From: Candidatus Galloscillospira stercoripullorum
GTDB lineage: Bacteria > Bacillota > Clostridia > Oscillospirales > Oscillospiraceae
DNA length: 38,011 nt
Direction: 5' to 3'
Assembly (NCBI GenBank): GCA_018715695.1
Contig: DVLB01000043.1
Coordinates: 1 to 38,011, forward strand
The position numbers and the translations under genes were made by a program. The notes beneath the pieces are model-generated. The model was not told the origin of the DNA and did not search any database. It saw only the letters and a list, made by a program, of their open reading frames with translations. Shown one piece after another: positions 24,053 to 32,279 of the stretch (positions are counted from its first letter, which is position 1; each line of letters starts with the position of its first letter).

Positions 24053-24405
24053 GCAAGCAAGCTGGACAGCCGCGGACCCAGGCCGAAAGGCCGGGCCTGA
24101 GGAAAGTCCGGGCTCCACAGGGCAAGGATAACGGGTAACACCCGCCGGGGGCGACCCTAGGAAAAGGGCAACAGAAATAAACCGCCGTTCCGGCTCGCCG
24201 GGGCGGTAAGGATGGAAAGGCGAGGTAAGAGCTCACCCGATGACGTGGAAGCGCTCATCGCTGTAACCTCTATCCGGAGCAACGCCGTGGAAACGCATGA
24301 GGCCGGCCCGGCCGCGTTTGGGAGGCGGCTTGAGCGTACCGGCAACGGTGCGCCTAGATAGATGGCTGTCTTAAAGGACAGAACCCGGCTTACAGGCTTA
24401 CTTGC
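24053..24405 (+). ncRNA. rnpB: RNase P RNA, bacterial class A
   Basis: The catalytic RNA of RNase P matures tRNA 5' ends. Conserved core elements are in order: GAGGAAAGTCCGGGCTCC near the 5' end, the ACAGAAATA segment, AGATAGATGGCTGTC, and ACAGAACCCGGCTTA near the 3' end. The ends pair to form P1, GCAAGCAAGC (24053-24062) with GCTTACTTGC (24396-24405), with one mismatch. The length of about 353 bases and the layout fit class A, not the Bacillus class B. Ends are set by P1 and may be off by a few bases. Confidence 0.95.
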
Positions 24406-24419
24406 ACCCATACGGAAAG

Positions 24420-31360: not shown

Positions 31361-31897
31361 TTACCGCTCCTGTCTTGCGGCATAGCGCCCGCTGCCCGGC
31401 CGGGCGGCATCCGCCCCCGGAAGACAGGAGGTGCAGGAGCGGCCATGGCACAGGGCCACGGCCACCGCGTCGGCGGCGTCGTCCGGGCGGATCTGCTTTT
31501 TCAGGCACAGCAGCCGGCGGGTCATCTCCATGACCTGGCTCTTTTCCGCCTTGCCGTAGCCCACCACCGCCTGCTTGATCTGGGAGGGGGTGTACTCAAA
31601 AATGGGCACTCCGGCGCGCTCCGTCTCCGCCAGGATGACGCCCCGGGCCTGGGCCACGCCGATGCCCGTGGTCACATTCTGGTTGAAAAAGAGCTCCTCA
31701 ATGGCCAGGGCCTCGGGCTGAAAACGCCGGAGCAGCTCTCCCATGTCGTCGGCGATTTGAAGTAGCCGCCTGGGAAGGGGCCAGCCGGCTGGCGTGGTGA
31801 TGGCGCCGCACTGGACCAAGGAGGCTCTTGCGCCGGAGACGTCCACCACGCCGAAGCCCACGATGGCAAAGCCGGGGTCGATCCCCAGAATGATCAC
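31361..31897 (-). CDS. ruvC: Holliday junction resolvase RuvC
   Basis: RuvC cuts Holliday junctions delivered by RuvAB. The 178-residue protein has the acidic catalytic set: Asp in LGIDPG, Glu in AIEELFF, and two Asp in RPDDAADAVAVALCH. A Cys- and Arg-containing tail after residue 152 is not part of the catalytic core. The GTG at 31897 gives the canonical start VIILGIDPG and has AGGGGAGGGG before it; ATG 31918 has no ribosome site. The 5' side abuts the palindromic element at 31924-32195. Confidence 0.93.
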   Translation of the reverse strand: MIILGIDPGFAIVGFGVVDVSGARASLVQCGAITTPAGWPLPRRLLQIADDMGELLRRFQPEALAIEELFFNQNVTTGIGVAQARGVILAETERAGVPIFEYTPSQIKQAVVGYGKAEKSQVMEMTRRLLCLKKQIRPDDAADAVAVALCHGRSCTSCLPGADAARPGSGRYAARQER

Positions 31898-31931
31898 GTG
31901 CTCCCCTCCCCTGGTCATAGTGCCATTATTC

Positions 31932-32083
31932 TAATGCGTATCGAACAAAGCCGGAAGTCTTGAAAGCCGGGGCTTTCAAGACCATTTTGCTTTGTTCGGG
32001 TGCAAGGTTTTAGGGACAAAATCGTCCTAAAACCTTGCACCTTTCCCTGGTATGACTCTGCGTACCAGGGAAAATACGCATTA
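31932..32083. repeat. Cloverleaf module 1: closing stem and three abutting hairpins
   Basis: Closing arms TAATGCGTAT (31932-31941) and ATACGCATTA (32074-32083) enclose three perfect-armed hairpins. The first, 31942-31998, has outer arms CGAACAAAGC / GCTTTGTTCG and inner 11-bp arms at 31957-31967 and 31972-31982. The second, 31999-32041, has 16-bp arms. The third, 32042-32073, has 11-bp arms TTTCCCTGGTA / TACCAGGGAAA. Each starts on the base after the previous one ends, so no base is unpaired at the four-way junction. Confidence 0.85.
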
Positions 32084-32087
32084 TAAC

Positions 32088-32189
32088 AATGTCGCGCTTT
32101 CCCCAAAGCAGGCGCAAAGAGCTGCTTTGGGGAATTGCGCGGCTTCCGCCGCGCGAATAAACCGATTTGCGGTTTATTCAGCAGACATT
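32088..32189. repeat. Cloverleaf module 2: closing stem and three hairpins
   Basis: Closing arms AATGTC (32088-32093) and GACATT (32184-32189) enclose 13-bp arms at 32099-32111 and 32122-32134, then GCGCGGC (32137-32143) with GCCGCGC (32148-32154), then GAATAAACCG (32155-32164) with CGGTTTATTC (32170-32179). Short linkers of 5, 2, 0 and 4 bases separate the stems, so this copy is less tightly packed than module 1. Confidence 0.75.
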
Positions 32190-32219
32190 ATTCTACCACG
32201 CCTCCCGGTACCGGCGCAA
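32190..32219 (-). promoter_or_regulatory. Probable promoter reading through the palindromic element into ruvC
   Basis: On the minus strand TTGCGC (32219-32214) and TAGAAT (32195-32190) are spaced 18 bases apart. The -10 lies in the right-hand direct repeat, so a transcript from here would carry nearly the whole element as a leader ahead of ruvC. Confidence 0.5.
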
Positions 32220-32239: not shown

Positions 32240-32279
32240 AAAACGGCGCGCGCGGACCGGTTTCAGGTCCGCGCGCGCC
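32240..32279 (-). terminator. Terminator after the iron alcohol dehydrogenase
   Basis: A perfect 14-bp G+C stem (32245-32258 with 32266-32279) has a 7-base loop, followed on the minus strand by GTTTT. Confidence 0.85.

Follow-up and report, generated by a model that had tools for sequence, protein, structure and literature searches.

Among the closest described systems are the Correia elements (CREE) of Neisseria, whose direct repeats (TA, TATA, or TATAG) resemble the -10 hexamer (PMC9330008) and for which sigma-70-like promoters are described in a review of non-autonomous DNA transposons, or MITEs (PMC10969869). Other mobile elements are known to form fusion promoters with -10 boxes of the host (PMC9330008). 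BOX, RUP, SPRITE, and QMITE2, which are MITEs with stable transcript folds (PMC10969869), are likened here by description to the element reported below: they are likewise short, intergenic, non-coding, hairpin-forming, and dispersed.

The window, a 38,011-nucleotide stretch of contig DVLB01000043.1 from Candidatus Galloscillospira stercoripullorum, contained an element directly upstream of ruvC that we consider, with a probability of about 0.85, to be a MITE of about 257 bp. No earlier description of the element was found in literature searches, and phage and plasmid records contained no match to it. The features of the site were as follows.

31361-31897, minus strand: ruvC, likely GTG start at 31897 (the longest open reading frame runs from ATG 31918; orthologues in relatives)
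31928-31932: left target site duplication ATTCT, same as 32190-32194
31933-32189, plus strand: complete MITE-like element, 257 bp, ends AATG...CATT (full-length alignment with 13 and then 65 other copies; ends fixed by the 5-bp direct repeats)
31933-32082: module 1, closing stem 31933-31940 with 32075-32082 (folding and alignment of copies)
31942-31998: hairpin 1, outer stem 31942-31951/31989-31998, inner stem 31957-31968/31971-31982 (folding, arm inspection, and covariation)
31999-32041: hairpin 2, 16-bp perfect arms, matching the leader hairpin of an insertion-sequence transposase gene (leaders of loci L159 and L163-L171)
32042-32073: hairpin 3, arms 32042-32052/32063-32073 (folding and covariation)
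32083-32087: spacer ATAAC between the modules, 5 nt, the length of the target duplication (alignment of copies)
32088-32189: module 2, closing stem 32088-32093/32184-32189, hairpins 32099-32134, 32137-32154, and 32155-32179 (folding and copies)
32190-32194: right target site duplication ATTCT, which with A32195 reads TAGAAT on the minus strand
32190-32195, minus strand: predicted ruvC -10 box TAGAAT, restored on the side facing the -35 box (sequence reading; orthologous promoter TTGCGC-18-TAAAAT in the same-genus genome G001)
32214-32219, minus strand: predicted ruvC -35 box TTGCGC, separated from the -10 box by 18 bp (conserved in locus L263; family-wide TTG peak at spacing 16-18)

Folding, copies, and ends of the element

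An earlier note, made from the sequence of the window, described two tandem multi-hairpin modules at this site, and folding bore out that description. Specifically, 31924-32195 folded at -150.6 kcal/mol versus -74.8 ± 4.8 kcal/mol in shuffles (z = -15.9), and the opposite strand gave a z of -15.3 relative to its shuffles. The fold consisted of two closed multi-branch modules with abutting stems, and an identical two-module fold was recovered from 66 full copies of the element. The module limits proposed in the note were accurate to within 1-2 bp and were refined to 31933-32082 and 32088-32189. Its statement that the hairpins were perfect was accurate for most arms, but hairpin 1 of module 1 turned out to be a 10-bp stem, an internal loop, and a 12-bp stem. 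The outer stem of this hairpin was an inverted repetition of the terminal-repeat motif.

Relatives were searched for further copies, as the earlier note had proposed. With 60 relatives searched, about a dozen dispersed copies were found in the source genome (74% complete) and more were found in other genera. Of 400 genomes of the family, 57 matched a consensus query; these belonged to 31 of 106 genera, and copies were also present in a few other families of the same order. The 66 full copies were nearly all 255-259 bp in length and contained no coding gene.

Copies of the element started with AATG, finished with CATT, and had short terminal inverted repeats, with AATGYSTRCTGAAYAAA at both ends. 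The end pattern AATGBNTRCTGAAYAAA was present in 40 of 45 carrier genomes, and the reversed control gave 0 matches. Direct repeats of 5 bp immediately flanking the copies were exact in 49 of 65 cases, compared to a mean of 14.3 and a maximum of 23 for shuffled flanks; when ATTAT sites were left out, the duplication was exact in 22 of 33 cases versus 1.7 for shuffled flanks. The duplications had the form ANNNT within TANNNTA, mostly TATTATA, which reads TATAATA on the complementary strand. A 7-bp duplication (TANNNTA) with ends ATG...CAT was disfavored because the flanks of some copies differed at the outer T or A. Sister genomes had empty orthologous sites at the corresponding positions, where the target occurred only once. 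Dispersal within and between genomes, shared ends, terminal inverted repeats, 5-bp ANNNT duplications, and empty sites were all shown for the element, and they bore out one option in the earlier note, a miniature transposon of an unknown family.

The ruvC site and insertion at predicted promoter -10 regions

The order of sequences in the window was TTGCGC, 18 bp, TAGAAT, the element, AGAAT again, and then the start of ruvC, with the GTG codon located 35 nt from the left end of the element. As read from this order, the element split a predicted ruvC promoter, TTGCGC-18-TAGAAT. The ruvC promoter of the same-genus genome G001 was GGTTGCGC-18-TAAAAT without the element, and that of genome G015 was TTGCGT-17-TAAAAT. 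A generic promoter scan, which was stricter, reported no promoter at the site in the window.

The four-way geometry of the modules and their position directly upstream of ruvC would suit a cruciform or Holliday-junction substrate that is functionally linked to RuvC. We give this idea almost no credence because the 27 loci with ruvC orthologues that were retrieved from relatives all lacked the element, which led us to reject a functional tie to ruvC, and because unrelated genes followed the other copies. The earlier note had allowed that the adjacency to ruvC might be coincidence, and these loci indicated that it is.

Two other features of the window were recorded. A strong hairpin (GGCGCGCGCGGACC/GGTCCGCGCGCGCC) at 32245-32279, right after an iron-alcohol-dehydrogenase-like gene, was probably a terminator, and 24054-24408 matched bacterial RNase P RNA class A (Rfam RF00010, 266 bits).

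Across the family, 63 insertions remained for a count of TTG positions after obvious orthologous duplicates were removed. On the minus strand of the right flank, 28 of the 63 insertions had TTG at a distance of 16, 17, or 18 bp upstream of the restored hexamer. The left flank had TTG at 16-18 bp in 9 of 63, and off-register spacings gave about 2-6 of 63. A TTG spacing of 16-18 bp corresponds to sigma-70 promoter geometry, in which the duplicated bases occupy -11 to -7. Statistically, then, the predicted target was shown to be mostly the -10 hexamer (TATAAT) of a sigma-70-type promoter, with positions -11 to -7 duplicated. Insertions were also biased in orientation (41:17, p = 0.002), with module 2 usually toward the -35 box and module 1 toward the gene; genes with a ribosome-binding site started on the left (module-1) side in 39 of 64 cases and on the right (module-2) side in 18 of 64. 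Of the other TATAATA sites in the same loci, 42% had TTG at a spacing of 16-18 bp, versus 64% (18/28) of TATAAT insertions (p = 0.03). Because non-inserted TATAATA sites often had TTG too, the element may recognize the sequence rather than active promoters.

Insertion in a -10 box would leave one -10 hexamer beside the original -35 box and another on the gene side, and since the -10 box is duplicated, the invaded promoter could survive. Transcription would then start at the element boundary and read through the element as a structured 5' leader and/or restart at the gene-side -10 box. Such insertion and duplication suggests how, by simple means, a mobile element could persist beside genes and leave them intact.

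A role as a portable promoter part would go further, in that an outward -35 box in the element ends and the regenerated gene-side -10 box would form a fusion promoter and explain retention before genes. At the left junction, 38% of copies had an outward TTG at a distance of 17 bp, and at the right junction 30% had one at 16 bp; host -10 fusion promoters have precedents in other elements, as noted above. However, most copies lacked TTG at these positions, including the copy in the window (TTCCGG), and the -35 position fell in a variable internal loop. We therefore regard this role as doubtful.

Conservation of the pairing

The covariation check proposed in the earlier note gave a positive result, although the mismatches did not favor one strand. 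Among 40 diverse copies, double-sided changes were observed in 53 of 79 pairs, including 14 of the 14 pairs counted in hairpin 3. The number of cells changed on both sides was 333, versus 80 when shuffled and 28-55 when partners were slid. Between subfamilies, whole arms differed yet stayed complementary. Selection for an RNA of one strand predicts an excess of one mismatch type, with G.U favored on the transcribed strand. The mismatches in the copies were 202 G.T versus 211 A.C, and those in the subfamily consensuses were 13 versus 11. Because the two types were equally common, the pairing looked conserved at the DNA level or on both strands and not as one RNA.

These counts bear on whether the element is a structured RNA (a leader, sRNA, or riboswitch-like RNA) that is kept for its one-strand fold and whose spread is incidental. 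The fold and covariation were strong, and most insertions would place the element in a 5' leader, as such an RNA would require. Against it were the equality of G.T and A.C, the unrelated genes that followed the copies, and an Rfam search that gave no match at gathering score (the best, tsr25, had 32.7 bits versus 63). We judged this explanation to be very unlikely, and the folded RNA that the earlier note had offered as an option was thus not upheld for one strand. That covariation can run this deep with nothing to indicate selection on a one-strand RNA is a warning for covariation-based RNA discovery.

The history of the changes was also informative. Copies more than 95% alike had 50 one-sided and 0 two-sided changes, so rapid palindrome correction in inserted copies was not seen. 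Two-sided changes rose with distance (log-log slope of about 2.4), and one-sided changes leveled off (slope of 0.5). Since close copies had only one-sided changes and double changes grew with distance, the pairing looked to be maintained in an active lineage, at the DNA level or on both strands, and inserted copies then appeared to drift. Perfect arms could instead arise without any selection on the structure, if palindromes were corrected from a template as the DNA replicates, and this would fit subfamily arms that differ wholly but remain complementary, as well as the lack of strand bias. It is unlikely, given the changes in the close copies and the slopes, which fit compensation that proceeds step by step in an active lineage.

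We also put forward a broader proposal, tentatively, as one possibility. The transposition system may target the promoter -10 region, possibly as melted by RNA polymerase, and spare the promoter by exact duplication of -11 to -7, and the DNA fold itself may be selected, for example, as a transposition substrate.

Probable partner insertion sequence and comparison with known systems

Elements that shared the ends but differed inside led to an insertion sequence of 1,559 bp (L159:1397-2955), which had the ends of the element, an exact ACGTT duplication, and an intact 513-aa open frame. Its transposase scored 414.8 bits against the NCBIfam IS5 model NF033578 (cut-off, 275), which placed it in that family; the IS1182 family was rejected at 55.9 bits, below the cut-off of 270. 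Among named records, a copy in Oscillibacter valericigenes An860 had an identical transposase protein. The 5-bp duplication was exact in L159 only; among the other insertion-sequence copies with both flanks present, two matched only in a shifted register and two showed none. The L159 leader hairpin, AGTGCAAGG...CCTTGCACTT, matched hairpin 2 of the element. Because this insertion sequence shared its ends with the element and had a leader hairpin like hairpin 2, the element would be moved in trans by an IS5-family (NF033578-type) transposase, and the insertion sequence is the likely source of its mobility. The transposase was found in 17 of 400 genomes; its co-occurrence with the element was modest, the element being present in 6 of these 17 versus 51 of the other 383 (p = 0.02). 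The transposase was not found in the source genome, which is 74% complete.

At L159:2820-2955, as well as upstream of the transposase in L163-L171, TATAAT was located directly before the 5' arm of the leader hairpin, and the hairpin ended at a GGAGG ribosome-binding site. Leader hairpins are known to protect transposases from read-through expression. Here, read-through transcripts would form the hairpin, and the insertion sequence's own transcripts would lack the 5' arm.

Shorter and rearranged relatives were also observed. Derivatives of about 90-95 bp (L140:6049-6143 and L141:5915-6007) had element ends and matching 5-bp duplications (ATAAT and ATGAT, respectively), which suggests that movement may not require the full cloverleaves. 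In a 50-bp minimal form (L113:2265-2314), the left end was fused to the right-end hairpin. In genome G299, a multicopy insertion-sequence end with the same terminal repeat was found at four contig ends (L132:6898-6994, L133:4751-4847, L134:1-94, and L135:1-94), and the interior was absent from the assembly. Two oppositely oriented element fragments about 125 bp apart were present at L131:6311-6607 (contig C103 of genome G000).

Compared to IS5-family insertion sequences (NF033578, transpos_IS5_1), the element resembled L159 in the end core, the exact 5-bp ANNNT-type duplication, and the hairpin-2-like leader. It differed from them in that they are about 1,550 bp, carry a transposase gene, and are rare in these genomes, and the few insertion-sequence copies seen had no clear -10 preference, unlike the element. 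In Oscillospiraceae-type gut bacteria, the element family would be a further and recurring origin of structured leaders and of altered promoters.

The Correia elements are similar to the present family in being small MITEs upstream of genes with direct repeats that resemble the -10 hexamer. In contrast, they have other ends and mostly a 2-bp TA duplication, whereas the duplications found here were 5-bp ANNNT, and membership in the Correia family was rejected on this basis. We know of no covarying double cloverleaf and no in-register insertion into existing promoters among Correia elements, and a pair of closed multi-branch modules that show compensatory change between genera is, to our knowledge, unusual among bacterial MITEs.
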